Shown here: one piece after another, positions 2,667-36,125 of the stretch | Numbering within the stretch: position 1 is the stretch's first letter | How the letters are laid out: every line of letters begins with the position of its first letter | Notes under the pieces: model-generated | What the model was told of the DNA's origin: nothing | What the model saw: only the letters and a program-made list of their open reading frames with translations | Databases searched by the model: none | NCBI GenBank assembly: GCA_003252535.1 | Contig: QKDN01000014.1 | Location: 1 to 49,559 of the forward strand | Source of the DNA: Campylobacterota bacterium | Lineage (GTDB): Bacteria > Campylobacterota > Campylobacteria > Campylobacterales > Sulfurovaceae | Reading direction: 5' to 3' | Length of the DNA stretch: 49,559 bases | Position numbers and translations under genes: made by a program

Positions 2667-5600
2667 ATGGAACCGTTATTTATTCTTCTATTGATCATCG
2701 TTATCACTATACTGTTCAGACGGATCGGTCAGCTCGAATCGAAGCTCGAAGAGCTCGAAGATCGATTTGAACGCTACACCTATGAAACACGGCAACAAAG
2801 TAAGGGAGACTTGCGCTCTCCGCTCGATATGCGGCAGCAGCACACCGAGAAACCGCCGACGAAAGCAGCATCGCAGCCTCCCGCCTCACAGACCCCGGCA
2901 GCCGCGGGCAGCAGGGAGCCGAGCACCCCGTCGCCCAAACCCGGCAGGACGATCCAGTTCACCAGACCCAATACCATGATCAAAGCGGACACCCCCGAGA
3001 CCAAGGTCGCCCCGGAAGCCGCCCAGCCCAAACCTGAAGTGAATGCGATCAAAGAGACACCAAAAGTTCCAGAGCCGACCCCTCCGAAACCGGAAACCAA
3101 ACCTCTCCAGACAGACAACACCGCCCATAGGATCAATGCCCCTCATATCAACGACAAAGCGGAGACGGTCAAAGAATCGAAACCTGTTGCAGAAACGACA
3201 CCGCAGCCTGTAGAGAAAAGCGTCGAAAAGAGCGAAGAAAAAGCCGCTCCGGTGAAACTGGCAGCAACAGAAACGGTTGCCAAAAAGATCAACGCTCCCC
3301 ATATCAGTGATGATAAAAAGATCGTCAAAGAGCTCGAAGCGGCTCCGCAAAATGCCGAAATGAAGCCGATCCCGGTAGTCGCCAAAGAGAAGCCGACAGT
3401 AGTGGAAGAGCGTGTCCGAAAGGTAGACGCTCCGTATATCGGTCAAGACAAAACAGAAGCCGTCAAAGAGATCAAAGAGCCTGTAACAGAGAAAGTAGCA
3501 GCTCCGGCAGCGATCGCGGTAAAAGTGCCGGAGAGTGTAGAGGAGAGCAGACCTGGGATCGTAGGGGTACTCTTCTCCAAACTCTTCGAGCTGATCCGCA
3601 GGTACTTCACCGAGGGGAATATCCTGGTGCGTATCGGCGGGATCGTCCTCTTCATCGGTCTGGCATTTCTGGTCAAGTATGCCGCCGAGAACAGCATGAT
3701 CAGCATGGAGTTCAGGCTCATCTCGATCGCCCTTTTCGCGCTGGCACTGCTCTATACAGGATGGAGGCTGCGTGAACGGGAGGGGCACTACGGGACGATC
3801 CTCCAGGGGCTCGGGGTGGCGATCTTCTACCTCGTGGTCTACGCTGCGGCGAAGCTTTATGTGATGCTCCCGCTTAAGGCCGCCTTCTTCCTGATGCTGA
3901 TGATCGTCATCGTCGGCTCGCTGCTGGCGGTGATGCAAAACGCCCTGCCGCTGGCACTTTTCGCGATCAGCGGCGGCTTCCTCGCGCCGATCCTCACATC
4001 CGAGGGCGGGGGCTCCCATGTGATCCTCTTCAGCTACTACGCGCTGCTCGATGCGGGTATCGTCGGTATCGCATGGTACAGGTCATGGCGTGTCCTCAAC
4101 TTCACCGGGTTCACCTTCACCTTCGTCATCGCCACATGGTGGGGCGTCCTCAAGTATGAGCCCGCGCTGCTGCTGAGCACCGAGCCGTTCCTGATCCTCT
4201 TCTTCCTCTTCTACCTGGCGATCTCGATACTCTTCACCCTCAAGCAGCCATTCAAACCGAGAGCCTTTATCGACGCCACGCTGGTGTTCGAGCTCCCGGT
4301 CGTCGCTTTCGCGCTCCAGGTATCGCTCGTAGGTGAGATAGAGAATGCCGTCCTCTACTCCGCCCTCGGCGTGGGGACGATCTACCTCGTCCTCTCGAAG
4401 ATACTCTTCGGCTACCGGCAGATGGAGCTCCTCGCAGAGGCGTTCCTGGCGCTGGGCGTGGTCTTCTATACGATCGCCGTCCCCTACGCCCTCGATGACC
4501 ATCTCACCTCCGCGCTGTGGGTACTCGAAGCAGCCGCCGTGATCTGGGTATCGCTGCGGCAGGAGCGGGGGTATGCGAGAGTCTTCGGTTACTTCTTCCA
4601 GACCCTCGCTGTCGGACTCTTCATAGCCTCCACGATCTTCAGGTATTCCCCCAACGCTTTCGTCAATGTGATCTTCATGGAGTATGCGCTGGTGATTGCC
4701 GCCACCCTCTTCACCTCCTATATGCTCTATGCCTACTCGAGGTCGCATCACTACAGTTTCAGCGGCAGGACGGCATCCCGCTTCTTCCTAGTCGTCGGGC
4801 TGGGGGTATGGCTCCTCGCCGGGGTATTCGAAGCGCAGAAGTTCTCGGAGCCGTTCGGCAATGTGATGCTCCTCTATGTCACCCTCGGGACGGTGCTCTT
4901 CGCGCTGATCGCTTCGAGGCTCAGGTGGGAGGAGATGACCGATCACCTCCAGTACTACCTTTTCGCAGGGGTGATACTCTTCGCCATACTTGGAGAACGC
5001 TATTTCGCTTCCCACCCCTTTGAGGGTGCCGGGTTCACCGCGGTCACGCTCTTCTTCTTCATCCATTTCAAGCTCCTCTCCACCGTAGGGCGTGAATGGA
5101 AGCTCCAGCCCATCCTCCACCCGCTGGGGCTCTGGCTGCTGGTCGGGATCATGATGCGCGAGATGCACTACAAGATGACGCTGGCAAGCGACATCGCCGC
5201 CCTCCAGATGCTCGGCATGGCGGCTCTCCCCCTTCTCCTCTCGTGGTGGTTCACATCCAGAAGCTTCTCCCTCATGCGCTGTGAAGAGAGCTACAGGGGT
5301 ATCGGTACGAGCGGTCTTCTCACGATGCTCTTCATCGCCAGCATCCCGTACGCCTTCGCCGACGCTCTCAGCGCTGCTCTTTTCGTCCTCGAAACTACCG
5401 CCATCGCCGGGATACTCGCCAGACAGGGGAGAGTACAGCGCGTCACCTTCGTCTACTTCCTCCAGATGATCACGATCGCACTTTTCCTCGGTATCTCGGT
5501 CACCATGACCGCTGAACGAGCCTTTGTCAATCCGACCTTCCTCGGGTACATCATCGTCATCGCCGCCGTGCTCCTCTCTTCCTACAGGCTAGGTTACGGC

Positions 5601-12420: not shown

Positions 12421-13056
12421 CTATTGACTAAGACTTAAAATTTTTTCTATCCAATTATCAAATCGCTTTGCATTTGAACGAATAGCATGAAGTCCTATAT
12501 CAAAAGCAAACCCTTCACCATGAAAGACCTTATCATATTTATTAGATTCAAGTTCAAACAATTCTTCTAATCTTTTATGTGGAGCTGTTTGTGGAGAATC
12601 ATTGATGAGTTCTATGTCCTGATATTGACTTACAATTTTAACCATTTCTTTTTCTATTAAATCATTTCCAAAATAATCTGTAAAAACTTGTGGTTTACTA
12701 AAGAGTAGTGTTTCAAACTCATATTTTTGGACATATGGTATAAATTTACCACTATTGAAAAGCTTATACATATTTTGTTCGAGTTCATCGACATCATTTG
12801 TTGGTCTATTACTAAATCCATAAAAGTCATAAAATGTAGTAACGAAATCAAAAGAGTGAAGAAGTTTTTGTACTTCACTTTTTATTCTGTCGATATTAAT
12901 ACATCCACCTTTATGTTTTCTACCACATTTATCTTTACTCGTTGACACAATAATTGGTGTCATTTCAATTTCATAGTTTCTGAAGAATGGTGTTAGGACT
13001 TTTTGAGAAAAAGCATATTCAGTTTGTCCTTCGACAGATAGCCCAATCCTAATCAT
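12421..13056 (-). CDS. DUF4276 (TOPRIM-like) protein, partner of the upstream AAA ATPase
   Basis: 211 residues. The start is ATG 13056, which overlaps the last 8 bases of the ATPase gene (ATGATTAG) and gives MIRIGLSVEGQTEYAFSQ. VEGQTE is the TOPRIM/DUF4276 motif I glutamate; DFVTTFYDFYGF carries the acidic motif II; YVQKYEFETLLFSKP is the conserved DUF4276 block. Proteins of this type are paired with SMC/OLD-like ATPases in defence loci, where the TOPRIM part acts as nuclease. Strongly AT-rich. The nuclease role is inferred from family and pairing. Confidence 0.8.
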   Translation of the reverse strand: MIRIGLSVEGQTEYAFSQKVLTPFFRNYEIEMTPIIVSTSKDKCGRKHKGGCINIDRIKSEVQKLLHSFDFVTTFYDFYGFSNRPTNDVDELEQNMYKLFNSGKFIPYVQKYEFETLLFSKPQVFTDYFGNDLIEKEMVKIVSQYQDIELINDSPQTAPHKRLEELFELESNKYDKVFHGEGFAFDIGLHAIRSNAKRFDNWIEKILSLSQ

Positions 13057-14161
13057 AACTTGGAACTCCACCGATGAGATTTTTTTGCCACATTTCACCT
13101 ACACTATATTCTTCAAACCAATCTTTATATTCTTCACTATTCAATCTTGTAAATGTTGTAGCATTATCTTTTGTATCTGCTATGATAATATCATTGATAT
13201 CAAAAAAGTCTGCAAAGGTCGCTGACTGTGTAGAAGCAATTATTTGTGTGTTGTTTGACGCTACTCTAAAAAGTGAAGCCAAAATTTGCAGTGCAAAAGG
13301 ATGTAGGCCCAATTCCGGTTCATCAAGAAGTATCATTGTAGGTAATTTAGGTTGCAATAATAGGGTTGCCAAACATATGAAACGAATAGTTCCATCTGAG
13401 AGGTCATTGGCATCAAAATAAAGATCACTCCCTTTGTGTTTCCATCGAAGTCGTATCATATCACAATTGGCAACATCAGATTCCAGTATAAAATCATGAA
13501 AGAATGGAGCTACTCTTTGTATAGTTTTCACTATTTTTCTATACTCATATTCATGATTTTTTTTAATGTAATAGAGAAATGCAGGTAAGTTTCCACCGTC
13601 AACTGCCAATGAATAGTAATCATTTATATTGCATGGTTGCTTCATTGGGGAAGCTTTACTGGTATCATGAAAATGATAAACTTTCCAATCTTGTAAATAT
13701 CGAACTATATGCCCTAATGGATCTTTTGAGTGTGGTTGAGATGGTAATTTAGATTCTTTACTACCTTGGCTATTAAGAGGATGTTTTTTAGTACCACCAA
13801 AATAACCAATTTTATCTCCAAAAAAATATCCTGTTTCACTTTTAAATATAAGTCCATCATTAGCGGTAGGTAATAAGGTGGCCTGATAACCATTAGGTGT
13901 AAAAAGCATTGAAAAGTTCAAGATATTCGTAGTTTTAGTTCCAAAATGAAGAATTTTATTTGCACCTCCACATTGTGCAACATATAATTCTAACTCCTTT
14001 TCTAGAATCTTTCTAACAAAGTTAAAGAAACCAATAAAGTTACTTTTTCCAACACCATTTGCACCAATTAGAATATTAATAGAAGAAAATTCAATTTCAA
14101 GCGATTTGATAGATTTATAGCCGTTTATTTTTAGCTGATCTAATTTTCCAAGCTTTTCCAC
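13049..14161 (-). CDS. AAA (AAA_21/AAA_15, OLD-like) ATPase
   Basis: 370 residues. Residues ~8-50 hold the RecF/SMC-like start (INGYKSIKSLEIEFSSINIL) and Walker A GANGVGKSN. The middle ~60-240 is a family-specific insert. The ABC-type signature LSDGTIRF, Walker B MILLDEPELGLHP and switch STQS follow at ~265-325. This is the organisation of the OLD/RloA/AriA-type ATPases. The DUF4276 gene overlaps its 3' end, so the two are translationally coupled. It lies next to valS, convergent with nothing, and is much more AT-rich than valS, which suggests transfer. Likely role: sensor/effector ATPase of an anti-phage module; this is inference. Confidence 0.85.
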   Translation of the reverse strand: MEKLGKLDQLKINGYKSIKSLEIEFSSINILIGANGVGKSNFIGFFNFVRKILEKELELYVAQCGGANKILHFGTKTTNILNFSMLFTPNGYQATLLPTANDGLIFKSETGYFFGDKIGYFGGTKKHPLNSQGSKESKLPSQPHSKDPLGHIVRYLQDWKVYHFHDTSKASPMKQPCNINDYYSLAVDGGNLPAFLYYIKKNHEYEYRKIVKTIQRVAPFFHDFILESDVANCDMIRLRWKHKGSDLYFDANDLSDGTIRFICLATLLLQPKLPTMILLDEPELGLHPFALQILASLFRVASNNTQIIASTQSATFADFFDINDIIIADTKDNATTFTRLNSEEYKDWFEEYSVGEMWQKNLIGGVPSYD

Positions 14162-24578: not shown

Positions 24579-25532
24579 ATGATAGGAAAAGCAGAAACTC
24601 TTCATTACCATATATCGGAGACGCTCAACATCCTCATCTTCGTCACAGTACTTCCCGTCACATGGTGGTTGCTGTGGCTGGTCTCCCACAGTGAAAGTAT
24701 ACTTACTATGCTGCTTGCCGCATGGGGCTATGCACATCTGCACAATACGATCTTTTCGCTCCTCCATGAAGCGGTACACGGGGTCTTTTCACGCAGCAGA
24801 TTCCGCAATGACCTCTTCGGTATCCTGAGCGCGGCTGCTTTCCCCACATCGTTCACCTTGCAGAAGATCGCCCATCTCGGGCACCACAGACGCAACAGGA
24901 CCGACAAGGAGCTCTACGACTACTACCTCCCCACCGAATCAAAAGCGCTGCGCAATGTCTGGATGTACGGCGGCAATCTCCTGGGTCTCTACTGGTTCAT
25001 TATACCCTTCAGTAACCTCCTTATCCTCGTTGCTCCGAAGCTCTTCACCTCGCAGTGGTTCGTCCACGGCCCGGGGAGAGTTCTCGGGTTCGAGTCGTAC
25101 CTCGAGGAGATAGCCGAACACTCGATATGGCGTATCTGGTCGGAGGCACTGCTGGCGCTGATCTACCAGGTGGTGCTCTTCGAGCTCTTCGATCTCACCT
25201 GGCAGGGGTGGCTGCTCGCCCACTGGTTCTTTGCCCTCCACTGGTCCGCTCTCCAATATGTCGATCATGCCTGGAGCTCCCGCGATATCATCAACGGTGC
25301 ATGGAACCTCAAGGTGTTACCGATATCCCGCTGGCTCGCTCTCAACTACCATCTCCACCTCGCGCACCACCGTCACCCGGAGGTTCCCTGGGTCTACCTG
25401 CCGCAGCTCGTCGATCCCAAAGAGCCCTACCCATCCTTTTGGTCGATATACCGCACACTGTGGGGAGGGGTGAGACCCGCACCGCCGATGCATTCACCGG
25501 CACAGTACCCCTTTGCAGAGGAGCAGCGGTAA
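24579..25532 (+). CDS. Membrane fatty-acid desaturase
   Basis: 317 residues, first gene of the cluster. The three di-iron histidine boxes are present: LLHEAVHG (HxxxH, residues ~65-70), HLGHHRRNR (HxxHH) and, near the C-terminus, HLHLAHHRHPEVPW (HxxHH). Four to six hydrophobic helices (ILIFVTVLPVTWWLLWLV, LGLYWFIIPFSNLLILVA, LLALIYQVVLFELF) fit the integral-membrane DesA/beta-carotene hydroxylase class, which inserts double bonds or hydroxyls into acyl chains using O2. Exact substrate unknown. Stop overlaps the next ATG (TAATG). Because it leads the operon, an acyl chain or lipid is the likely substrate of the pathway. Confidence 0.88.
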   Translation: MIGKAETLHYHISETLNILIFVTVLPVTWWLLWLVSHSESILTMLLAAWGYAHLHNTIFSLLHEAVHGVFSRSRFRNDLFGILSAAAFPTSFTLQKIAHLGHHRRNRTDKELYDYYLPTESKALRNVWMYGGNLLGLYWFIIPFSNLLILVAPKLFTSQWFVHGPGRVLGFESYLEEIAEHSIWRIWSEALLALIYQVVLFELFDLTWQGWLLAHWFFALHWSALQYVDHAWSSRDIINGAWNLKVLPISRWLALNYHLHLAHHRHPEVPWVYLPQLVDPKEPYPSFWSIYRTLWGGVRPAPPMHSPAQYPFAEEQR

Positions 25533-26182
25533 TGTGGTTCGGCACCAGGTCGGCAACACTCGATCCCGCTGAGTACAGGCTCCTCTCTATATGGAAGACC
25601 TACGGCTACTGGGCATTCTGGGTGGGAGTGGCATTCTTCTCGGTCTACCCATCATGCAACTGGATATCGGCGCAGCGCAGTGAACCCTATCTCGCCTATT
25701 TCGACCAGGAGCTGGCGGTACCCTTCGTCCCGGAGTTCTTCTGGGTCTATATGTCGATGTACCTGCTCTTTTTTATGCCGCCTCTCTTTCTCAATGTCAC
25801 GCAGCTGCGGCAGCTGGGCAAAGGGCTCATTATCGGGACATTGATAAGCGGTATCATATTCCTTCTCTTCCCCTCGCAGCTGGGGTTCGAGCGGGTCGTC
25901 CCCGAGGGGTTCTACGGCGGGCTCTATGAGCAGATATTCTCACTCGACCGGCCGCACAATATGATCCCCTCGCTCCATGTGGTCTACAGCGGCTTCATAC
26001 TGCTCGCTGTTTACCGTGCTTCTGATGACAAATATGTCAAAGTTTTCGCTATACTGTGGCTGTTATCGATATCACTGTCGACGCTGCTCGTGCATCAGCA
26101 CCATATCGCCGATATCGTCCTGGCACTGGTGATCATTTGCTTTGTGAACAGAAAAATACTCAAAGGGAGAGAAGATGTATAA
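25532..26182 (+). CDS. PAP2-superfamily membrane phosphatase or phosphotransferase
   Basis: 216 residues, ATG 25532 overlapping the desaturase stop. Five or six TM helices. The active-site parts of the PAP2 family are seen: LDRPHNMIPSLHVVYSG (P-S-x-H) and LLVHQHHIADIVLA (H-x-x-x-D). The pattern resembles the inositol-phosphorylceramide synthase/AUR1-like branch of PAP2 more than soluble acid phosphatases. It would remove or transfer a phosphate-linked head group of a lipid at the membrane. Overlaps the next gene by 8 bases. Confidence 0.82.
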   Translation: MWFGTRSATLDPAEYRLLSIWKTYGYWAFWVGVAFFSVYPSCNWISAQRSEPYLAYFDQELAVPFVPEFFWVYMSMYLLFFMPPLFLNVTQLRQLGKGLIIGTLISGIIFLLFPSQLGFERVVPEGFYGGLYEQIFSLDRPHNMIPSLHVVYSGFILLAVYRASDDKYVKVFAILWLLSISLSTLLVHQHHIADIVLALVIICFVNRKILKGREDV

Positions 26183-26777
26183 ATGGCTGGTTGTATTATT
26201 CCTGGTACTGGGCAGCGGGCAGCTCTGGGCTGATGTGCAGGATAGCGACGAGGCGATCCACAATGAACTCCGCTCGATCCTTACGGGTCTCGAAAATGCG
26301 GTCAACAGCGGGAAGTACGACCAGCTGCCGCAGTATTTTCACAAAGATATGACGGTCACGATGAGCAACCAGGAGGCGCTCCGTTCGCCTGAGGATATAG
26401 CGAAGTTCTTTGCGTTCTGGTTCGGCGAGGGCGGCAAGCTCGATCATGTCGAGATGAAGCTCGATGCGGATGCCCTCACGAAGCTCTATGCAGACAAAAC
26501 GATCGGCGTGGTACACGGAAACGGCGTGGAGAACACCTACCTCTCCGACAAACGATTCTTCCCCATGAAGACCCGCTGGAGCGCAACACTTATCAAGGAC
26601 AGCGACGGGAAATGGCGTATCCTCTCCCTCCATATGGGGGTGAACTTCCTCGACAACCCGGTCATCAGCATGGTGGAGGATAATACGAAGAACCTCATGC
26701 TCATCGGCGGTGGCGCCGGAGCGCTGATCGGGCTCCTGATCGGCTTTTTGCTTTGGCGGAAAAGAAAGCCTGAGTGA
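26175..26777 (+). CDS. NTF2/SnoaL-like protein with signal peptide and C-terminal TM anchor
   Basis: 200 residues. Signal sequence MYKWLVVLFLVLGSGQLWA, a ~130-residue cone-shaped NTF2-like domain (AVNSGKYDQLPQYFHKDM, FFAFWFGEGGKLDHVEMKL, RWSATLIKDSDGKWRILSLH) and a C-terminal helix GAGALIGLLIGFLLWRKRKPE with positive stop-transfer. The domain would sit in the periplasm, anchored in the inner membrane. NTF2-like folds serve as ketosteroid-isomerase-type enzymes or small-molecule binders; no catalytic pair can be assigned. Overlaps both neighbours. Confidence 0.75.
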   Translation: MYKWLVVLFLVLGSGQLWADVQDSDEAIHNELRSILTGLENAVNSGKYDQLPQYFHKDMTVTMSNQEALRSPEDIAKFFAFWFGEGGKLDHVEMKLDADALTKLYADKTIGVVHGNGVENTYLSDKRFFPMKTRWSATLIKDSDGKWRILSLHMGVNFLDNPVISMVEDNTKNLMLIGGGAGALIGLLIGFLLWRKRKPE

Positions 26778-27520
26778 GCAGTCCCGGACAAGCGTCGATG
26801 CAGGGAGCATACCATACCGTTATCACTGCCGTGGAGCATCTGAGCCCCGTGCAGACAGGGAGAATGGCAGAGCTCTATCTCTCCTATTATAACGCTGCCG
26901 ATGAGAGGATGTTCCTCTCCGACCTGCGCAATAAGACAAAAGCGTTGCTCCTCTACCATGTGGATACGCTTGTAGGGTTTACGACCTTCGAGGTGTACGA
27001 GAGGGTCTGGAGGGATGAGAGGATAGCCGTCGTCTACTCGGGCGATACGATAGTGGAGCAGGCACACTGGGGACAGCAGGCGCTGGCACACGGATGGATC
27101 GGGTATATCGCCGGGCTCAGGAAAGAAAAGGGCGCTATGCCCATCTACTGGTTCCTGATCGTCAAGGGGCATCGCACCTTCAAGTACCTCCCGGCGTTCA
27201 CCCATCTCTTCTATCCCCACTGGTCGGGAGCGTGCGACCACCTCAAACCGCTCCTCGATACCCTTGCCGAAGAGAAGTTCGGCAGTGACTACGACAAGGA
27301 GCGCGGGATCATCTCCTTCCCCAGATCGAAAGGGCACCTCAAAGAGGCGTACGCCTATCCGCGGGAGAACGAACTCTCCAATGCTTCGGTACAATTCTTC
27401 CTCGAAAAAAATCCCGGCTATCTCGTGGGCGATGAACTGGCCTGCCTCTGCTCCTTCGACGATGCCAACCTCCGTCCCCTGACAAAGAGGATACTTTATG
27501 CCAATATGGAGAAGAGCTGA
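26774..27520 (+). CDS. GNAT-like protein of the cluster
   Basis: 248 residues from GTG 26774, which overlaps the previous stop (GTGA); ATG 26798 is an alternative. It reads like an atypical acyltransferase of the GNAT fold: KALLLYHVDTLVGFTTFEVY (strand pair), AVVYSGDTIVEQAHWGQQAL, PIYWFLIVKGHRTFKYLPAF and HLFYPHWSG. I recall similar proteins beside GH3-type genes, but cannot name a function. No signal peptide. One base separates it from the GH3 gene, so the two are probably co-translated and may act on the same acyl compound. Confidence 0.6.
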   Translation: MSSPGQASMQGAYHTVITAVEHLSPVQTGRMAELYLSYYNAADERMFLSDLRNKTKALLLYHVDTLVGFTTFEVYERVWRDERIAVVYSGDTIVEQAHWGQQALAHGWIGYIAGLRKEKGAMPIYWFLIVKGHRTFKYLPAFTHLFYPHWSGACDHLKPLLDTLAEEKFGSDYDKERGIISFPRSKGHLKEAYAYPRENELSNASVQFFLEKNPGYLVGDELACLCSFDDANLRPLTKRILYANMEKS

Positions 27521-27521
27521 T

Positions 27522-29000
27522 ATGCAGAGCGTACGGGTGGTACAGGAGAGATGGCTGATGGAGTGTCTCGGGCGCAATGCCGGCTGTGAATACGGAAGAA
27601 CCTACGGTTTCGAGCACATCGCAAATGCGGCTGACTACCGGAGAGCCGTTCCCCTTGTCAACTATGAGGATATTTCTCCTCTCATCGAGCAGATAGCAGG
27701 CGGTAGTAACGATATTCTTTGTATGGGAGAACCCGTCGCATTCGAGGTGACCGGAGGCAGTACCGGCGGCGGGAAACTGATCCCCTATACCCCTGAGAGC
27801 TTCGCCGATTTTCAGAAAGCACTGCTGCCGTGGTTCACACACACGCTGCATCATTACGGGATAGGAAGCGGCAGCTCGTACTGGTCGATCAGCCCCGCCA
27901 TGCGTACGGTCGATACGACACCCAGGGGGATCGATATAGGGGTGAGCGACGCGGCATACCTCGGCGAAGCGGCTCTCGGGAGTGTCGCCGAGGGGATGGC
28001 AGTACCTCTGTGGGTCGTCGAGCTGCATGAGCTTGACGAGTGGCAGATCGCGACACTCTACCACCTGATCCGTGCGGACGATCTGGAGCTGCTGTCGGTA
28101 TGGAGCCCCACCTTCCTGCTGATGCTGCTCGATGCATTGGAAGAACAGAGCGGAGCATTGCGGGGACTGTTGTCGGACGGGGGAACGGTCGGCGGTCACT
28201 CACTGGCAGCCGATCCCGAAGCGCTCACCCGGCTTCAGAAGTATTTGAAAAATACCGATACCGCACAGCTGTGGCCGAACCTCAAGCTGATCAGCTGCTG
28301 GGAGGATGCCATGTCACGCCCCTATGCGAAGCGGCTCAAAGAGAGGTTCAGAGGCGTCCCTCTCCAGCCCAAGGGTCTGATCAGCACCGAAGGGGTCGTG
28401 ACAGTGCCCGATATCGACGGCATACCGCTTTTGAGTATTGAAAGCGGCTTCTATGAGTTCATCGACAGTACGGGAACTCTCTTTCTCGCCGATGAACTGC
28501 AACCCAACGAAATATACGAGGTCGTCATGACGACAAACGGCGGCCTCTACCGGTACCGCTGCGGCGATACTGTCCGGTATGAAGGATCACGGGACGGTGT
28601 GCCGATCCTCCGCTTCATGGGGAGAAGCGGCAATACCTCGGATATGGTCGGGGAGAAGCTGACCGAAGCCTTTGTGCTGCAGGCGCTGCGGGGCATGGCG
28701 GGCTCTGCCATGCTCGTCGCACAGCCGGGTGAGAGACCGAACTACCTGCTGCTCGGAGAGTCGGAGAGTATCGGGAGTATGCTCGAAGAGGTCGAACAGG
28801 AACTGATGCGAAATCCCCAATACGCCTATGCCCGGAAGATGGGGCAACTGGAGAAAGTGGAAACTATTATCGTCCCCGGGCTTATGAGACTCTATATCGG
28901 GTATAAGAATGAAACAGGCAACCGCGTCGGGGATATCAAGGTTCCTGCGCTCTCGACGGACGGCGAGTGGCTGAAGCGGATCAAAAGGGAGACGCCATGA
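27522..29000 (+). CDS. GH3-family acyl-adenylate/acid-amido synthetase
   Basis: 492 residues; ATG 27522 one base after the preceding stop. ANL-type adenylating fold of the GH3 class: motif I FEVTGGSTGGGKLIPYT (~residues 76-92, ATP loop), motif II around KGLISTEGVVTVP (~287), and motif III LYRYRCGDTVRYE (~347), the Y-R-x-G-D of GH3. Plant GH3 enzymes join amino acids to auxin or jasmonate through acyl-AMP; bacterial members are poorly studied. In this operon it probably activates a carboxylic or fatty acid and passes it to an amine. Stop overlaps the next ATG (ATGA). Confidence 0.88.
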   Translation: MQSVRVVQERWLMECLGRNAGCEYGRTYGFEHIANAADYRRAVPLVNYEDISPLIEQIAGGSNDILCMGEPVAFEVTGGSTGGGKLIPYTPESFADFQKALLPWFTHTLHHYGIGSGSSYWSISPAMRTVDTTPRGIDIGVSDAAYLGEAALGSVAEGMAVPLWVVELHELDEWQIATLYHLIRADDLELLSVWSPTFLLMLLDALEEQSGALRGLLSDGGTVGGHSLAADPEALTRLQKYLKNTDTAQLWPNLKLISCWEDAMSRPYAKRLKERFRGVPLQPKGLISTEGVVTVPDIDGIPLLSIESGFYEFIDSTGTLFLADELQPNEIYEVVMTTNGGLYRYRCGDTVRYEGSRDGVPILRFMGRSGNTSDMVGEKLTEAFVLQALRGMAGSAMLVAQPGERPNYLLLGESESIGSMLEEVEQELMRNPQYAYARKMGQLEKVETIIVPGLMRLYIGYKNETGNRVGDIKVPALSTDGEWLKRIKRETP

Positions 29001-30364
29001 AGATAGTACTGATCTCACCCAAAGGGCCGCTCTACCGCTACAAAGGGGGGATATTCAAAAAGTCCCTGCGCTATCAGCCCCTGACCCTCACCACCCTCGC
29101 TGCCCTTATCCCGGGGGATATCGAACACGAGATCGTCCTCATAGATGAGAGCATCCAGAGCGTAGGCGACGATCTCGATGCCGATATCATTGGCATGACT
29201 GTGATCAGCGGCACGGCGAGACGGAGCTATGAGCTGGCTGATCGTTTCAGGTCGCAGGGAAAATATGTCATCCTCGGCGGCCCCCATATCACCCTCGTCC
29301 CGGAGGAGGCACAGGAGCATGCCGACACCATCTTCGTGGGGTATGCCGAGGAGACCTGGCCGCAGTTCCTGTACGATTTCCGGGATGGGAGGGCGAAGCG
29401 GCGGTATGATCAGGGGGCTGGATTTACTTTGCAGGGGGATGCCCCGTTCGCGAAACGCGAGCTCTTCCCCGCGAGCGCCTTCCTGACCCAGGCGGTCTTC
29501 GAGGCGACCCGTTCGTGCGTCCACAAGTGCGATTTCTGCGTAGCCCCGAGCGCATGGGGGAGCAGGCAGTACCAGCACCCCGTCGACTGGGTCATCGAGG
29601 ATATCCGAAGGGTCGGTCAGAAGAAGATCATCTTCGTCGATCTGAACCTCGTCTCCGACAAACAATACGCCATAGAGCTCTTCACCCGGCTGATACCGCT
29701 CCGTGTCCAGTGGTTCGGCCTCTCGACGGTACTGATCGCCCATGACGAGGAGCTGATGGAGCTGATGGCAAAGAGCGGCTGCAAGGGTCTGCTGCTGGGG
29801 CTCGAGAGCATCTCGAACACCAATCTCAAAACGACCCACAAGCAGTTCAACAGCTCCGTCGACTACGCCGCGCTCATAGCGAAACTCCACAGGCTCGGTA
29901 TCTCGATACAGGGGTGCTTCGTCTTCGGGCTGGACGAGGATACGACCGATGTCTTCGACGAGACGGTCGATTTCGTACTGAGCACAGGGATCGACCTCCC
30001 GCGCTTCGCCATCGTCACCCCGTTCCCTGGGACTCCCCTCTACCGCAACCTCGATTCGGAGGGCCGTATCCTGACGAAGGACTGGGAGCTCTACGACGGG
30101 CAGCATGTGGTCTTCGAGCCCAGACAGATGAGCGTCGGGGAACTTTTGAACGGGCATGAACATGCTTGGAAAAAAGCCTACTCCTACAGCGGGATAGCAA
30201 AACGACTATGGCAGGCGAAGAACTTCCAGCCGCTGGCGATCACGACCAACCTCGGCTACCGCTTCTATGCCAATCACCTCGACAGGTTCTACAACTGCGA
30301 CTGGCAGGTCGAGAGCCACCTCCCCAATCCCTGGGCAAGCGCCGATATCAAGGGCGGCAACTGA
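28997..30364 (+). CDS. B12-binding-type radical SAM enzyme 1
   Basis: 455 residues; ATG 28997 overlaps the GH3 stop. Residues 1-150 are a cobalamin-binding-type Rossmann domain (IVLIDESIQS, DADIIGMTVISGTARRSYEL, YVILGGPHITLVPEEA) without a clear DxHxxG. The radical SAM cluster is C174-x3-C178-x2-C181 (CVHKCDFC), followed by IIFVDLNLVSD, GCKGLLLGLESIS and FVFGLDEDT. The C-terminal part (FEPRQMSVGELLNG) is the extension seen in hopanoid- and chlorophyll-type enzymes of this class. Of the four in the operon it is the most divergent. Methyl transfer or ring/C-C chemistry on an unactivated carbon is possible; substrate unknown. Confidence 0.88.
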   Translation: MKIVLISPKGPLYRYKGGIFKKSLRYQPLTLTTLAALIPGDIEHEIVLIDESIQSVGDDLDADIIGMTVISGTARRSYELADRFRSQGKYVILGGPHITLVPEEAQEHADTIFVGYAEETWPQFLYDFRDGRAKRRYDQGAGFTLQGDAPFAKRELFPASAFLTQAVFEATRSCVHKCDFCVAPSAWGSRQYQHPVDWVIEDIRRVGQKKIIFVDLNLVSDKQYAIELFTRLIPLRVQWFGLSTVLIAHDEELMELMAKSGCKGLLLGLESISNTNLKTTHKQFNSSVDYAALIAKLHRLGISIQGCFVFGLDEDTTDVFDETVDFVLSTGIDLPRFAIVTPFPGTPLYRNLDSEGRILTKDWELYDGQHVVFEPRQMSVGELLNGHEHAWKKAYSYSGIAKRLWQAKNFQPLAITTNLGYRFYANHLDRFYNCDWQVESHLPNPWASADIKGGN

Positions 30365-31725
30365 TGCATCTGACGATCATCCACCCCGCTATCGGCCATA
30401 TCAGGGGAGAACGCTATATCCGTTCATGGCAGATGGAGCCCCTCCCCGCCGCCGCGATAGCGGGACTCACCCCGGATGATGTCACCATCTCGTTCTATGA
30501 CGACCGTATGGAGAAGATCCCCTTTGACACGCCCACCGACGCCGTGGCGATATCGGTGGAGACCTACACCGCCAGGCGCGCCTACCAGATAGCGAGCGAG
30601 TACCGCAGACGGGGCGTCCCCGTTATCATGGGAGGATTCCATGCGACCCTGATGAGCGAAGAGGTCGAGGAGTATGCCGAGGCTGTCGTGGTCGGCGAAG
30701 CCGAAACCCTCTGGCACGAGGTGATAGATGACCTGAGAAAAGGAACATTGAAACGGCGCTATCAGAGCGTAGAGCGTCCACCCCTCGATGCCATCCGTAT
30801 CGACCGCTCCATCTTTCATGGGAAACGCTACCTCCCCATCGGTTTGGTCGAGACCGGGAGGGGCTGCAGGTTCTCGTGCAATTTCTGCGCGATACAGGCG
30901 TTCTTCGAGAACACCCACCGCAACCGCCCCGTTGCGGACATTGTCAACGAAATCGAGTCGCTGAAAAAGGAGAAGAACATCTTCTTCTTCGTCGATGACA
31001 ACTTCATCGGCAATATCAAAAGAGCCAAAGAGCTCTTGCTTGCCCTGATCCCCCTCAGGATACGATGGATCACACAGATGAGCATTGATGGCGCCTACGA
31101 CGAAGAGCTGCTGGAGCTGCTGGAGAGGAGCGGGTGTAAGGGGGTGCTGATCGGCTTCGAGAGCCTCGATGAGAAGAACCTCAAGCTGATGAACAAGAGC
31201 TTCAATACCATGCACGGCGGTTACCAAAATGCCCTCGACAACCTCAGACGGTACAATATCCGCATCTATGCCACCTTCGTCTTCGGGTATGACCACGATA
31301 CCGAAGCCTCGTTCGATGCGGCGGTGGCGTTCGCGAAGGAACAGCGCTTCTATATCGCCGCGTTCAACCACCTCACCCCCTTCCCCGGCACACCGCTCTA
31401 CAAACAGCTTCAGGATGAAGGGCGTCTGCGGTTCGAACGGTGGTGGCTTGATGAGAACTACAGATACAACGACCTCCCGTTCACCCCGAGGCAGCTGGAG
31501 CCAGAAGAGGTCACGAGGCTCTGCGTCGAGTCGCGCAGGAAGTTCTACAGCCTCGGCAGCATACTTTCAAGGGTTCTCTCACCTGCCAACTACAGCGACG
31601 GCTTTATGCTCAGGAACTACTTCCCGATCAACTGGATGCACCGCCGCGATGTCAGTAGCCGCAACGGCTACCCCCTCGGCGACGAGACATGGCAGGGAAC
31701 GCTGCTGAAGGTGAAGCGATCATGA
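30364..31725 (+). CDS. B12-binding-type radical SAM enzyme 2
   Basis: 453 residues; ATG 30364 shares the last base of the previous stop (TGATG). N-terminal Rossmann-like domain with VAISVETYTARRAYQIASEY and VPVIMGGFHATLM; radical SAM motif C168-x3-C172-x2-C175 (CRFSCNFC); then IFFFVDDNFIGN, GCKGVLIGFESLDEKN, TFVFGYDHDT and NHLTPFPGTP, ending in a WWLDENYRYNDLPF block. Closely related to enzymes 3 and 4, so probably a product of duplication within the cluster. Confidence 0.88.
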   Translation: MHLTIIHPAIGHIRGERYIRSWQMEPLPAAAIAGLTPDDVTISFYDDRMEKIPFDTPTDAVAISVETYTARRAYQIASEYRRRGVPVIMGGFHATLMSEEVEEYAEAVVVGEAETLWHEVIDDLRKGTLKRRYQSVERPPLDAIRIDRSIFHGKRYLPIGLVETGRGCRFSCNFCAIQAFFENTHRNRPVADIVNEIESLKKEKNIFFFVDDNFIGNIKRAKELLLALIPLRIRWITQMSIDGAYDEELLELLERSGCKGVLIGFESLDEKNLKLMNKSFNTMHGGYQNALDNLRRYNIRIYATFVFGYDHDTEASFDAAVAFAKEQRFYIAAFNHLTPFPGTPLYKQLQDEGRLRFERWWLDENYRYNDLPFTPRQLEPEEVTRLCVESRRKFYSLGSILSRVLSPANYSDGFMLRNYFPINWMHRRDVSSRNGYPLGDETWQGTLLKVKRS

Positions 31726-32807
31726 GAGGGGTGCGTTTCGCCACACCGGAGGATGAGGGACAGCTCAGAGCGCTCCTCAGGGAGAACCCGATGGACTCCT
31801 GGGTATCGATCACCCTCGAGCGCGAACCCTCCTACTTCAGGGGCGCCTCACTGATGGGTGCGAGCCGCACTTTCCTCTCGGAGGAGGATGGAGAGACCGT
31901 AGGGATGTTCTCCTGCTCCCGGCTCCCGGTGCATATCAACGGGGAGAAAGCTGCCGTGGGGTATCTCGGCGGGCTGCGGGTCGGCAGCAGGTTCAGACAC
32001 AGGATACGCTATATCAGGGAGGGATTTCGTGCGCTCGGTACGATGATGCCGAAAGATGATGCCGTACCGTTCTATATCACCAGCATCGCGACGGAGAACA
32101 CCCATGCCCGAAAGCTCCTCGAAGCCAACCTCGAAGGGATGCCGACCTATACCCCTGCGGGGCAGCTGACCACATTGATCTTTTCGACCGCAAAAGGGAA
32201 GAAGAGTGGAATCCTGCAACAGGCAACACCTGAAGATATTCCACTTATAGCCGACTTTTACAACAGGCACGCCGCCGCCTGGCAGTTCTCAGCCCACCTC
32301 GACAGTTCGTGGCTCGAGGGTCTCGATGGTACACTCGGGCTTAGAATAGATGACTTCTGGCTGATGCGGGATAAGGACGGTGGAATAAAAGGGTGTCTGG
32401 CACTCTGGGATCAGCGAGGGTTCAAGCAGAGCGTCGTGCGCGGCTACCGGGCTCCGCTGGGGCAGCTGCGCACAATCTACAATCTCTATGCACTCCTGAC
32501 AGACAGGGTCACCCTCCCCGCACCCGGCGAGAGACTGGAGCATCTCTATATCGCATTCTTCGCCTGTGAGAATAGTGGGGATGCACTGACGATGATCCGG
32601 AAGGCTGCCTCTCTGGCGCAGGGTGTCAAAGGGGCAAACAGCTGTGTTATGGGGCTCTCTTCACGTCACACCTTACTGCCGCTGCTGAAAAAAGAGCTGC
32701 GCCCCTCCCTCTACCTGACCGAGATCGAAACGGTGGTACTCGACGGAGAGGAGAACGGGATGTCGCTCGACGGCCGTCCCGTACAGCCAGAGGCGGCGCT
32801 GCTATGA
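31722..32807 (+). CDS. Double-GNAT-like acyltransferase
   Basis: 361 residues; ATG 31722 overlaps the previous stop (ATGA). Residues 1-150 look like one GNAT domain (VRFATPEDEGQLRALL, MFSCSRLPVHINGEKAAVGY, LGGLRVGSRFRHR with an acyl-CoA-loop-like R-x-x-x-R); residues ~165-330 like a second, more divergent one (QATPEDIPLIADFYNRH, LYIAFFACENSGDALTMIRK). GNAT proteins transfer acyl groups from CoA, or with tandem domains act as acyltransferases on amines. It separates enzymes 2 and 3 and is probably needed for the same pathway. Function otherwise unknown. Confidence 0.7.
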   Translation: MRGVRFATPEDEGQLRALLRENPMDSWVSITLEREPSYFRGASLMGASRTFLSEEDGETVGMFSCSRLPVHINGEKAAVGYLGGLRVGSRFRHRIRYIREGFRALGTMMPKDDAVPFYITSIATENTHARKLLEANLEGMPTYTPAGQLTTLIFSTAKGKKSGILQQATPEDIPLIADFYNRHAAAWQFSAHLDSSWLEGLDGTLGLRIDDFWLMRDKDGGIKGCLALWDQRGFKQSVVRGYRAPLGQLRTIYNLYALLTDRVTLPAPGERLEHLYIAFFACENSGDALTMIRKAASLAQGVKGANSCVMGLSSRHTLLPLLKKELRPSLYLTEIETVVLDGEENGMSLDGRPVQPEAALL

Positions 32808-34117
32808 AGCTCGAACGCATCACCCTGATCCGTCCCAATATGGGGAACTACCGCTCCAACGACGCCCTTCTCCCACTGGCGATGGCGATACTCGCGGCCC
32901 GCACCCCTGACGATGTCCGGGTCTCGTTCTACGACGACAGGGTGGAGAGCTTGCCTGATGGGGACACCCCCGATCTCGTGGCACTCAGCGTGGAGACCTT
33001 CACCGCCGGGCGAGCCTACGAGATAGCGCAGGGGTACCGCGACCGCGGGGTGACGGTCGTGATGGGCGGCTACCACCCCACGCTGATGGGCGAGGAGGCG
33101 CTCGAATATGCCGACGCGATCATCATCGGCGATGCCGAGGGGAGCTGGGAGAGGCTGCTGGAGGATTTCCGCGCTGACAGGCTGGAGAGACGATACAGCG
33201 GCGGGAACGACAACCCCCTCGACGACTACAGGATGGATCGCAGCATCTTCGCTGGGAAGAAGTATGCCCCCGTGGAGCTGGTTCAGTACAGCCGCGGATG
33301 CCGTTTCACCTGCGAGTTCTGCTCCATCGATGCGTTCTACAGCCACAAGGTGCGGGTGCGCCCGGTGCAGAGCGTGATCGACGAGATCATGACGCTGGAT
33401 CGGAGAAAGCTCCTCTTCTTCGTCGACGACAACCTCTTCAGCTCCAGGAGAGAGCTCGACACCCTGCTGGACGCGCTGTCACCCCTGAAGATGCGATGGT
33501 CGTGCCAGATCAGTATCGATGTGGCGAAGGACGACGCGCTGCTGGAGAGGCTCAGGAGATCGGGGTGCATCTTCGTCCTCATAGGGTTCGAATCGCTGAG
33601 CGAAGCGAATCTCCGGCAGATGGGCAAGAGCTGGAACAAGGTGAGCGGCGAATACCGCGAGATCGTCGAAAAGTTCCACCGTCTCGGCATGGCGGTCTAC
33701 GGCACCTTTGTCTTCGGGTATGATCACGATACGCCTGAGCTGATCGAGCAGAGCATCCGTTTCGCGCAGGAAGCGAAGCTAGAGATCACCAACTTCAACC
33801 CCCTCACCCCGACGCCCGGCTCGGGTCTCTACGACAGATTGCTCGGCGAGGGGCGTATGATCAGCGAACGGTGGTGGCTTGATGGGGAGTTCCGCTACGG
33901 CGACCCGATATTCCGGCCGAAACTGATGGAGCCCGAGGAGTTCGCCCAGAAGTGTTTCGAGGCAAAACAGCGTTTCTACTCATGGCGTTCGATCATCAGC
34001 CGGGTGATCTTCTCCCGGACGAAGTTCGACCTCTTCAGGTTCGCGATGGTGCTGCTCGCCAATATCGTATCGCGCAGGGAGATATACCGCAAGCAGAGCA
34101 GGAGGCTGGGGGAATGA
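32804..34117 (+). CDS. B12-binding-type radical SAM enzyme 3
   Basis: 437 residues; ATG overlaps the previous stop. LSVETFTAGRAYEIAQGY and VTVVMGGYHPTLMGEEA in the N-terminal domain; C166-x3-C170-x2-C173 (CRFTCEFC); LLFFVDDNLFSS, GCIFVLIGFESLSEAN, TFVFGYDHDT, NFNPLTPTPGSG; C-terminal RWWLDGEFRYGDPIFRPKLM. All landmarks coincide with enzyme 2, so same reaction class but presumably a different position or substrate. Cytoplasmic, oxygen-sensitive 4Fe-4S enzyme. Confidence 0.88.
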   Translation: MKLERITLIRPNMGNYRSNDALLPLAMAILAARTPDDVRVSFYDDRVESLPDGDTPDLVALSVETFTAGRAYEIAQGYRDRGVTVVMGGYHPTLMGEEALEYADAIIIGDAEGSWERLLEDFRADRLERRYSGGNDNPLDDYRMDRSIFAGKKYAPVELVQYSRGCRFTCEFCSIDAFYSHKVRVRPVQSVIDEIMTLDRRKLLFFVDDNLFSSRRELDTLLDALSPLKMRWSCQISIDVAKDDALLERLRRSGCIFVLIGFESLSEANLRQMGKSWNKVSGEYREIVEKFHRLGMAVYGTFVFGYDHDTPELIEQSIRFAQEAKLEITNFNPLTPTPGSGLYDRLLGEGRMISERWWLDGEFRYGDPIFRPKLMEPEEFAQKCFEAKQRFYSWRSIISRVIFSRTKFDLFRFAMVLLANIVSRREIYRKQSRRLGE

Positions 34118-35454
34118 ACCTGAAGATAACGCTGATCAAACCGACCATCGGGACGAAGGAACACAGCCTCTATATCGACGAGGGACGGATGGAACCGCTG
34201 ATGCTCGGCGTACTGGCGGGGCTGACCCCCGATGAGCACGAGGTGGTGCTCCATGACGACAGGATGGAGACGATCCCCTACGACGATCCCACCGATCTCG
34301 TGGCTATCACCGTGGAGACCTACACCGCGAGGAGAGCCTACGAGATCGCAGAGGAGTACAGGAGGCGGGGTGTCCCCGTCATCATGGGCGGGATGCATGT
34401 GATGCTCGTACCCGACGAGACAGCGCAACATGCCGACAGCATCCTGATCGGTGACGCCGAGACGGTGTGGTGCCAGGTACTCGATGACATCACACACAAC
34501 AAACTCCAAAAGGTCTACAGGGCTCCCGCAGGGATCGCCCAGGGGGGCGGGGTGCGGCCGAGGAGGGAGATATACCGGGGCAAGGACTACCTCCCCGTCA
34601 CGCTGATGCAGTTTTCTCGCGGATGCCGCTTCGACTGCCACTTCTGCGCGGTGAGCAGGTACTTCGACAAAAAGCACTATATCAGGCGGATCGACGAGGT
34701 GCTGGAGGAGATAGAGTCGCAGGAGAGGAAGTTCATCTTCTTCGTCGATGACAATATCGCTTCGCACCGCCAAGCGTTCAAGGAGCTCTGCCGGGAGCTC
34801 GCCCCCATGAAGATCAACTGGGTAAGCCAGGCGAGCCTCGATGTGACCCATGACCTCGAAGCAATGGAACTGATGGCAAAGAGCGGCTGCATCGGCAATG
34901 TGATGGGGTTCGAGTCGATCTCCCCAGAAAGCCTCAGAGATGCCAAAAAGGTCTCCAACCTCGCCTCGTTCTCCGACTACAGCTACGAGATCGGCGTGCT
35001 CCGCGACCATGCGATGCAGACCTGGGCGGCGTTTACCCTAGGGTACGACCACGATACCTACGATTCGATCATGGCGACGATGGAGTTCGCGCGGAAGAAC
35101 CGTTTCACCTTCGCCGCGTTCAATATCCTCACCCCATACCCCAATACGCCGTTCTATGAGAGTCTCGCGGAGCAGCAGAGGCTCCTCTATGAGGGCAGGT
35201 GGTGGCTCCACCCCGAGTACAGGTTCAACCACACGGCATTCGTCCCGCGCAATATGACCCCTGATGAACTGACTACAGTATGCCACGAAGCCCGCACACA
35301 GTTCAACTCCATCCCCTCGCTCCTCTACCGCTTTTCCGATCTCAAGACCAACCTGCGATCGGTCTGGAGGGCAAAGGCCTACCTCCGCTACGCGCTGCTC
35401 TTCCGCAAGGAGGTACACAAAAAACACTCTATGAGGTTCGGTTTGAAATGGTAA
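34114..35454 (+). CDS. B12-binding-type radical SAM enzyme 4
   Basis: 446 residues; ATG 34114 overlaps the previous stop (ATGA). VAITVETYTARRAYEIAEEY and VPVIMGGMHVMLVPDETAQH; C171-x3-C175-x2-C178 (CRFDCHFC); KFIFFVDDNIASHR, GCIGNVMGFESISPES, AAFTLGYDHDT, FNILTPYPNTPF; C-terminal RWWLHPEYRFNHTAFVPRNM. Paralogue of enzymes 2 and 3. Its N-terminal block is nearer to enzyme 2 (TYTARRAY) than to 3. The 3' end overlaps the membrane-protein gene by 7 bases. Confidence 0.88.
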   Translation: MNLKITLIKPTIGTKEHSLYIDEGRMEPLMLGVLAGLTPDEHEVVLHDDRMETIPYDDPTDLVAITVETYTARRAYEIAEEYRRRGVPVIMGGMHVMLVPDETAQHADSILIGDAETVWCQVLDDITHNKLQKVYRAPAGIAQGGGVRPRREIYRGKDYLPVTLMQFSRGCRFDCHFCAVSRYFDKKHYIRRIDEVLEEIESQERKFIFFVDDNIASHRQAFKELCRELAPMKINWVSQASLDVTHDLEAMELMAKSGCIGNVMGFESISPESLRDAKKVSNLASFSDYSYEIGVLRDHAMQTWAAFTLGYDHDTYDSIMATMEFARKNRFTFAAFNILTPYPNTPFYESLAEQQRLLYEGRWWLHPEYRFNHTAFVPRNMTPDELTTVCHEARTQFNSIPSLLYRFSDLKTNLRSVWRAKAYLRYALLFRKEVHKKHSMRFGLKW

Positions 35455-36125
35455 ACAGACGATTCTTCACTCTCTATCAGTATATCAGCCCCCTGGTGCT
35501 GACCCCGCTCTCGTTCTGGCTCTGGTGGCACACTTATCATGAAGAGCTCTCGTTGACCCTGGTCGCGTGGCTCCTGCCGATACTCTTCGCCTATATCGTC
35601 CCGGGGGTGGGGACGAACATACTGAAAGTCTGGGAGTTCGACACCCGCTACCGCCTCGGCCGCTTCCGTCCCCACCACGGCTTCGTCTTCGGAAGCGCGA
35701 CCTCGATGCTGCTGTGGCTGGTGCATACGGGTATAGCCACGAGTATGGCCGACCTGCTACGGATGGCGTTCGTCTCCGCGTCGGTGCTGGGATTCTGGAA
35801 CCTGATCTACGATATCAAGGCGCTCAAAGCAGGCATCCTCATCGTCTACAACCAGCCCTGGGCGGACGGCAAAGGGGAAGAGGCCGTAGCGATGGACTAC
35901 GCCCCGGTATTCTTCGCCGGGTTCGGCATGGTCTACGGAGCAGCCATCAGCGGCGCGGAGATACTGCACACTCTGAAATATCTTGACGGGATAATGGCCG
36001 TTCTCTATTTCATCTCCGTCTTTGTCGTCTCCATCCTTGTCCCGGTAATACTCTACCGCCGTGCTTCGATCAGGAATCATGGACATGATGGGTGCAGGCC
36101 TGTGGGGAAAGACAGTGTGGAATGA
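35448..36125 (+). CDS. Integral membrane protein, last gene of the cluster
   Basis: 225 residues; ATG 35448 inside the last codons of radical SAM enzyme 4. Five or six TM helices: LVLTPLSFWLWWHTYH, LTLVAWLLPILFAYIVPGVG, FVFGSATSMLLWLVHTG, then FFAGFGMVYGAAISGAEI and VLYFISVFVVSILVPVILYR. A conserved-looking cytoplasmic loop has FDTRYRLGRFRPHHGFVF. No family recognised; it could be a lipid-modifying or transport component of the pathway. C-terminal tail is soluble. Confidence 0.65.
   Translation: MVNRRFFTLYQYISPLVLTPLSFWLWWHTYHEELSLTLVAWLLPILFAYIVPGVGTNILKVWEFDTRYRLGRFRPHHGFVFGSATSMLLWLVHTGIATSMADLLRMAFVSASVLGFWNLIYDIKALKAGILIVYNQPWADGKGEEAVAMDYAPVFFAGFGMVYGAAISGAEILHTLKYLDGIMAVLYFISVFVVSILVPVILYRRASIRNHGHDGCRPVGKDSVE

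Follow-up and report, generated by a model that had tools for sequence, protein, structure and literature searches.

Eleven consecutive genes on the forward strand of contig QKDN01000014.1 from a Campylobacterota bacterium (positions 24579-36125 of a stretch of 49,559 nucleotides, hereafter the window) appear to form an operon, spread by horizontal transfer, that would direct the synthesis of an undescribed acyl product with an amide link, possibly an aminolipid-like amphiphile. We assign this reading a probability of about 0.5. In gene order, the block encodes a membrane fatty-acyl desaturase (DES), a PAP2-type protein (PAP2), an NTF2-like protein (NTF2), a single GNAT-fold acyltransferase (GNATa), a GH3 acyl-acid amido synthetase (GH3), two cobalamin-type radical S-adenosylmethionine (SAM) proteins (RS1 and RS2), a double-GNAT protein (GNAT2), two further radical SAM proteins (RS3 and RS4) and an integral membrane protein (MEM). 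The original prediction had described the combination as no known pathway, and in the literature searched, which excluded most subscription journals, we found no account of a pathway that combines these genes; searches of that literature for GH3 with radical SAM, Rieske, UnbU/V, bacterial N-myristoyltransferase (NMT)-like enzymes and Budvicia likewise yielded no paper on the cluster.

Relatives of the block were sought in three ways: GH3 served as a tblastn query, contigs of bacterial and archaeal genomes were scanned with an RS1 alignment, and the neighbourhoods of GNATa were collected. A contig scan with the single GH3 protein as query found nothing, and it was the RS1 alignment that recovered the blocks. 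All 11 genes are present in identical order, with 54-79% identity, in the Sulfuricurvum metagenome-assembled genome (MAG) UBA12443 (locus L009). The tblastn search identified a mobilizable Citrobacter portucalensis plasmid that carries GNATa-GH3-RS1-RS2-GNAT2-RS3-RS4-PAP2-NTF2 together with an extra radical SAM gene and DES, and the RS1 scan added blocks in three Chromatiales MAGs (one cut by the contig end), Citrobacter youngae, Limnobaculum allomyrinae and Budvicia aquatica. The run GNATa-GH3-RS1-RS2-GNAT2-RS3-RS4 is unchanged in the Sulfuricurvum, Chromatiales, Budvicia, Limnobaculum and Citrobacter blocks. Because the same genes recur in the same order in other phyla, a chance assembly is ruled out, and these collinear blocks bear out the prediction that the 11 genes are one functional unit kept well beyond the source genome. 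Rather than being scattered and unlinked, the pattern named beforehand as contrary to such a unit, the homologues recur as a linked set in several lineages. DES, PAP2, NTF2 and MEM also occur in the blocks of relatives but are shuffled, with DES, PAP2 and NTF2 differing in position and strand between loci; MEM was not found in the Citrobacter and Limnobaculum blocks. In a Bacteroidales MAG, the core is rearranged and no DES, PAP2 or NTF2 gene lies nearby. In another genome (G736), the set is divided between two loci, GNATa-RS3-RS4-AurF-F15-DES and GH3-RS1-RS2-GNAT2-NTF2-PAP2, with MEM not seen, which indicates co-retention without full linkage. Both Citrobacter blocks also contain a fifth, RS1-like radical SAM gene beside the desaturase gene (L005 21088-22401 and L012 17576-18925; 361-362 bits to RS1) that is absent from the window.

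The block is rare. GNATa was found in 1 of 298 genomes of its own phylum, namely the source genome itself, and in 1 of 296 genomes of the phylum of the Bacteroidales MAG, which is again that MAG. It was detected in 9 of 369 Gammaproteobacteria and in 9 of 296 and 10 of 196 genomes of two orders, and no close copy was found in the Escherichia coli genomes. This rarity, together with plasmid carriage and the broad taxonomic range, suggests that the block has spread by horizontal transfer. Judging from this distribution, it is a mobile accessory pathway found mainly in Gammaproteobacteria, including a plasmid, and not a trait of Campylobacterota. The question posed originally was whether the block is conserved in other Campylobacterota and elsewhere; it is kept in the Sulfuricurvum MAG and in other phyla, but is rare in the phylum of the source genome. 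The GC content of the block (0.577) is higher than that of the rest of the window (0.498); however, adjoining genes reach 0.59, and composition by itself is therefore weak evidence of transfer.

The collected neighbourhoods contain 29 distinct loci with GNAT2, and their gene contents indicate that the invariant heart of the system is GNATa, GH3 and GNAT2, not the radical SAM genes. The radical SAM quartet is exchangeable, wholly or pairwise, with an oxygenase set (Rieske, P450, AurF-like, extra desaturase and UnbU-UnbV proteins). In none of the 16 genomes with RS3/RS4 does the Rieske family lie next to the block, and none of the eight loci with a Rieske protein has linked RS3/RS4 genes (Rieske protein in 0/16 versus 8/15; Fisher test with kinship ignored, p = 8e-4). 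One of the eight, G589, keeps RS1 and RS2 and has the Rieske gene and F10 where RS3 and RS4 would sit, and RS3/RS4 are found nowhere in its genome at E 1e-60. In six further Rieske loci, RS4 is missing genome-wide, the Burkholderia locus being outside that check. Seven loci besides G589 are wholly of the oxygenase type, and loci of this type carry varying sets of cytochrome P450, an AurF-like di-iron protein, a second desaturase, a UnbU-UnbV fusion, a PF10118 protein and a distinct radical SAM protein. The exclusion is not absolute, since G736 has AurF together with RS3/RS4. UnbU-UnbV fusion-type proteins are encoded in the oxygenase-type loci L038 (5180-8071; NQR2/RnfD-like, FG-GAP and UnbV_ASPIC), L039, L042 and L069; these families also occur in enediyne clusters, and no polyketide synthase (PKS) was noticed alongside them. 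At the other extreme, minimal loci retain GNATa, GH3 and GNAT2, several of them with export genes. In an Acinetobacter baumannii record (L007 5299-15906), the three genes are accompanied by genes for a LuxR-type regulator, an amidase, and EmrAB-like and TolC-like export proteins, and HlyD and AcrB-type resistance-nodulation-division (RND) genes lie beside minimal loci in Enterobacterales. MMPL transporter genes adjoin three blocks of the radical SAM type.

Of the three heart proteins, GNAT2 (31722-32807; 361 aa) has an AlphaFold2 model (pLDDT 83, pTM 0.85) with two tandem GNAT domains, and its best PDB matches in a Foldseek search are NMTs, aligned over the full length (E 6e-15, TM 0.63) with 12% identity. 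In NMT, the catalytic base is the C-terminal carboxylate (PMC7048800), and double-GNATs with the C-terminus in the active site are known from bacteria and archaea (PMC12219266). GNAT2 ends in PEAALL-COOH, and both the position of the stop and a Glu residue fifth from the end are constant in all 29 distinct loci; the last residue is almost always hydrophobic, as in PEIALL, LEPARL, VEIGSI and FESYLV. GNAT2 may therefore share with these enzymes not only the double-GNAT fold but also an NMT-like long-chain N-acylation, and since it is of the NMT type, such an acylation is the probable second amide-forming step. It differs from NMT in lying within a biosynthetic operon.

GH3 (27522-29000; 492 aa) matches the N-terminal (PF03321, 139.1 bits) and middle (GH3_M, 53.9 bits) domains of its family above the cut-off of 23.6 bits, the C-terminal domain falling just below it (20.5 bits), and retains the nucleotide-binding motifs GSTGGGK, STEG and YRxGD. 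Its profile matches are JAR1, GH3.6 and GH3.15, and by sequence it belongs to the JAR1/GH3.6 amido synthetase family; it shares enzyme family and nucleotide motifs with these plant proteins but represents a bacterial clade and is embedded in an operon. Its sole NCBIfam match is OlsH (NF052613), with partial coverage and 48.7 bits against a cut-off of 620. GNATa (26774-27520; 248 aa, GTG start) is modelled with high confidence by AlphaFold2 (pLDDT 90) and matches GNAT folds in the PDB at E ~1e-5; the structure search returned generic GNAT matches only, with no close solved relative and no hint of a substrate. It is present in nearly every locus of the wider family. Unlike that of GNAT2, the C-terminal tails of GNATa and GH3 vary among loci.

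The four radical SAM proteins, RS1 (28997-30364; 455 aa), RS2 (30364-31725; 453 aa), RS3 (32804-34117; 437 aa) and RS4 (34114-35454; 446 aa), all have the Radical_SAM domain (PF04055; 69.5 bits in RS2) and a CxxxCxxC cluster, which reads CVHKCDFC, CRFSCNFC, CRFTCEFC and CRFDCHFC, respectively. A B12-binding-like N-terminal domain (PF02310 in RS1) scores above the cut-off of 32.1 bits in RS1 (36.7) and RS3 (35.8) and below it in RS2 (31.4) and RS4 (26.9), and the DxHxxG motif is present in none of the four. The best NCBIfam matches are BchE for RS2 (101 bits) and RS3 (99.6 bits), HpnJ for RS1 (82.6 bits) and PhpK for RS4. No equivalog cut-off is reached, the best scores of the quartet being 101 versus 481 for BchE, 91 versus 577.6 for HpnJ, 99 versus 600 for PhpK and 82 versus 360 for TIGR04072. 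Membership in the ladderane, hopanoid and ornithine-lipid families was rejected because the scores lie below the family cut-offs. Ladderane-type lipid clusters contain several B12-binding radical SAM proteins (TIGR04072) beside lipid genes, and the block resembles them in this respect; however, its radical SAM proteins reach only 54-82 bits with that model, and it has GH3 and GNATs and lacks fatty-acid synthase genes. A tree built from 66 radical SAM proteins resolves RS1, RS2, RS3 and RS4 each as a single clade (bootstrap 98-100), with RS2-RS4 grouping together and the RS1 clade comprising 20 members across phyla; RS4 is 64% identical on the Citrobacter plasmid. Because each gene corresponds to one clade, the quartet has been inherited jointly across phyla.

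The remaining four genes point to the membrane. DES (24579-25532; 317 aa; PF00487, 76.9 bits) has the three His boxes of acyl-lipid desaturases (H63xxxH, H99xxHH and H260xxHH), which are invariant among aligned relatives. Four genomes that carry the radical SAM core lack a DES orthologue, although drafts may be incomplete, and desaturation therefore looks like an optional decoration. PAP2 (25532-26182; 216 aa), a phosphatase or phosphotransferase, scores 27.3 bits with PF01569 (cut-off 27.2) and contains PSLH at residue 146 and, as read by eye, HHIAD; the classical KxxxxxxRP motif was not found. Its orthologues in other blocks are 41-65% identical. The NTF2/SnoaL-like protein (26175-26777; 200 aa; DUF4440/SnoaL_3), which also has orthologues in other blocks, shows a signal-like N-terminal and a hydrophobic C-terminal segment when the topology is read by eye. 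MEM (35448-36125; 225 aa), of no recognised family, has no match in Pfam, NCBIfam or PDB sequences, and is 52-66% identical in the Sulfuricurvum, Chromatiales and Budvicia blocks; DES likewise has no sequence relative in the PDB. The inclusion of the desaturase, PAP2 and NTF2 genes in the block, as first proposed, is justified by their recurrence in many relatives but is not universal, as they are missing in some.

We propose the following order of steps, substrates and chemistry. GNAT2 would acylate a free amine with a long chain drawn from an acyl thioester, using its own C-terminal carboxylate as the base as in NMT. GH3 would adenylate a carboxylate with ATP and couple it to an amine, so that an amide arises with neither a nonribosomal peptide synthetase (NRPS) nor a PKS, and GNATa may acylate a further position or provide the amine partner. 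Acyl bonds would thus be made in two ways, driven by thioesters in the case of the GNATs and by ATP in that of GH3, with no carrier-protein assembly line. RS1-RS4 would act by cobalamin radical SAM chemistry on unactivated carbons of the scaffold, the likeliest reactions being oxidation or oxidative ring closure of the BchE kind, and DES, PAP2, the NTF2-like protein and MEM would complete a lipid product in the membrane; the presence of these four suggests that the late steps are located there. The predicted acyl-amide product without PKS, NRPS or ribosomally synthesized and post-translationally modified peptide (RiPP) machinery is supported by GH3 and the GNATs, the product being itself a proposal. 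MMPL or RND-type transporters beside related blocks would fit an amphiphilic product.

Several observations weigh against this reading. In the GNAT2 fold search, a Bacillus anthracis double-GNAT acetyltransferase (Eis-like) follows close behind the NMTs (TM 0.50); comparison with NMT2 sequence profiles is collinear yet non-significant (E 0.3-1), and no NMT Pfam match was obtained at E 0.01. The exchanged genes may signal a different end product instead of the same reaction, and the minimal loci with exporters, in Acinetobacter and others, resemble those for secreted metabolites and not membrane lipids. In addition, a single operon (24579-35454) pairs an O2-requiring membrane desaturase with four O2-labile radical SAM proteins, which suggests that production may be microoxic.

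The chemistry of the quartet allows another version of the acyl-amide pathway, which we consider less probable, in which RS1-RS4 are C-methyltransferases adding methyl branches (or rings) to the acyl chain. Methylation is a common activity of cobalamin radical SAM enzymes; the model for the PhpK family of P-methyltransferases ranks with the best NCBIfam matches (71-99 bits), and the PDB matches of RS2 include a tryptophan C2-methyltransferase and CysS. However, every family match is far below its cut-off, RS2 and RS3 match BchE best, and the enzymes that replace RS3 and RS4 in G589, or whole quartets elsewhere, oxidise and do not methylate. BchE and AcsF, an anaerobic cobalamin radical SAM enzyme and an aerobic di-iron enzyme, carry out one and the same step, and by analogy the occupation of radical SAM places by O2-dependent oxidases in relatives tips the balance from methylation towards oxidation. 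The analogy extends to the swapping of radical SAM genes for O2-dependent enzymes on a shared gene set; it differs in the substrate class and in that up to four genes are exchanged, and here the exchanged enzymes may catalyse different reactions. Thus, the predicted action of four cobalamin-type radical SAM enzymes on unactivated carbons is retained, but with oxidation preferred to the methylation first considered.

As to the product, a secreted small molecule (a signal, antibiotic or metallophore) in place of a structural lipid is a serious though less probable alternative, in keeping with the export genes and the LuxR-type regulator at minimal loci, the MMPL transporters, and the rarity and plasmid carriage that are common for secondary metabolite genes. 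The block in the window, however, has no exporter; it has the membrane desaturase, PAP2 and two more membrane-associated proteins, and its double-GNAT is predicted to be of the long-chain acyl type. An ornithine-lipid pathway with extra tailoring is improbable. In Singulisphaera acidiphila, the GH3 enzyme OlsH couples ornithine to fatty acids by ATP-dependent ligation, giving the lyso-ornithine lipid and starting an aminolipid (PMC12493201), and the block is alike in its GH3 acyl-amide start; yet the partial OlsH match is far below the cut-off, the block contains no recognisable OlsI-type O-acyltransferase, and it has two GNATs, a desaturase, PAP2 and four radical SAM proteins in addition. It is more improbable still that a desaturase/phosphatase lipid operon adjoins a separate GH3/radical SAM operon by chance: the varying position and strand of DES, PAP2 and NTF2 and the four genomes without DES would fit, but in many lineages, and at a hybrid locus too, the same three families accompany radical SAM and oxygenase types alike. 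Least probable, and very much so, is the tailoring of a polycyclic, hopanoid- or carotenoid-like terpenoid; HpnJ is the best match of RS1, albeit far below its cut-off, and in the Bacteroidales locus L044 (14426-16950) phytoene-desaturase-like (Amino_oxidase; CrtI-like) and squalene/phytoene synthase genes follow the block, whereas neither the window block nor those at the other loci examined had recognisable terpenoid genes as neighbours.

We regard the block as a novel form of GH3-dependent acyl-amide synthesis, and there is a fair chance that it constitutes a separate class. The wider claim, to which we give somewhat less than even odds, is that of a categorically new gene-cluster class, in which an NMT-type acyltransferase, GH3 and a GNAT build an amide-lipid scaffold, its modification falls to either cobalamin radical SAM enzymes (anaerobic) or oxygenases (aerobic) as an interchangeable set, and the whole moves between phyla on plasmids and chromosomes. 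GNATa, GH3 and GNAT2 would then provide a recognisable handle on a family of bacterial acyl-amide pathways likely to escape searches based on PKS, NRPS or RiPP genes, and would place bacterial enzymes of the NMT type, long reported as confined to eukaryotes, in a biological setting. The exchangeable sets would amount to a natural experiment on the mutual substitution of radical SAM and O2-dependent enzymes on one scaffold. Since Budvicia aquatica DSM 5075 and Citrobacter youngae ATCC 29220 carry the block, the product should be findable.

Re-reading of the ORFs and junctions confirmed 11 consecutive same-strand genes, nearly all overlapping, at the place and strand given originally. The ten junctions comprise nine overlaps and one 1-bp gap, in gene order TAATG (-1), an 8-bp overlap ATGTATAA, GTGA, the 1-bp gap, ATGA, TGATG (-1), ATGA, ATGA, ATGA and a 7-bp overlap ATGGTAA; the 8-bp and 7-bp overlaps are longer than those listed before. 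The gene classes first named agree with Pfam for DES, PAP2, the NTF2-like protein, GH3 and the four Radical_SAM proteins, and with the AlphaFold models for both GNATs; GNATa, GNAT2 and MEM have no Pfam family above cut-off. A TIGR02757-like gene lies upstream of the block and an rlmH-like gene downstream after ~300 bp (both names read from the sequence), and the block is therefore bounded at both ends. Scans for promoters and terminators gave nothing above chance, and the Rfam search matched no element. Elsewhere in the window, overlapping frames in a low-GC (0.33) patch on the reverse strand (12421-14161) encode a DUF4276 protein together with an AAA_21 ATPase, with a strong PADLOC match to the HEC-01 defence pair (HEC-01A 470 bits, HEC-01B 209 bits), and a DUF2339 membrane protein of 1950 aa is encoded at 2667-8519 on the forward strand (553 bits over five stretches).

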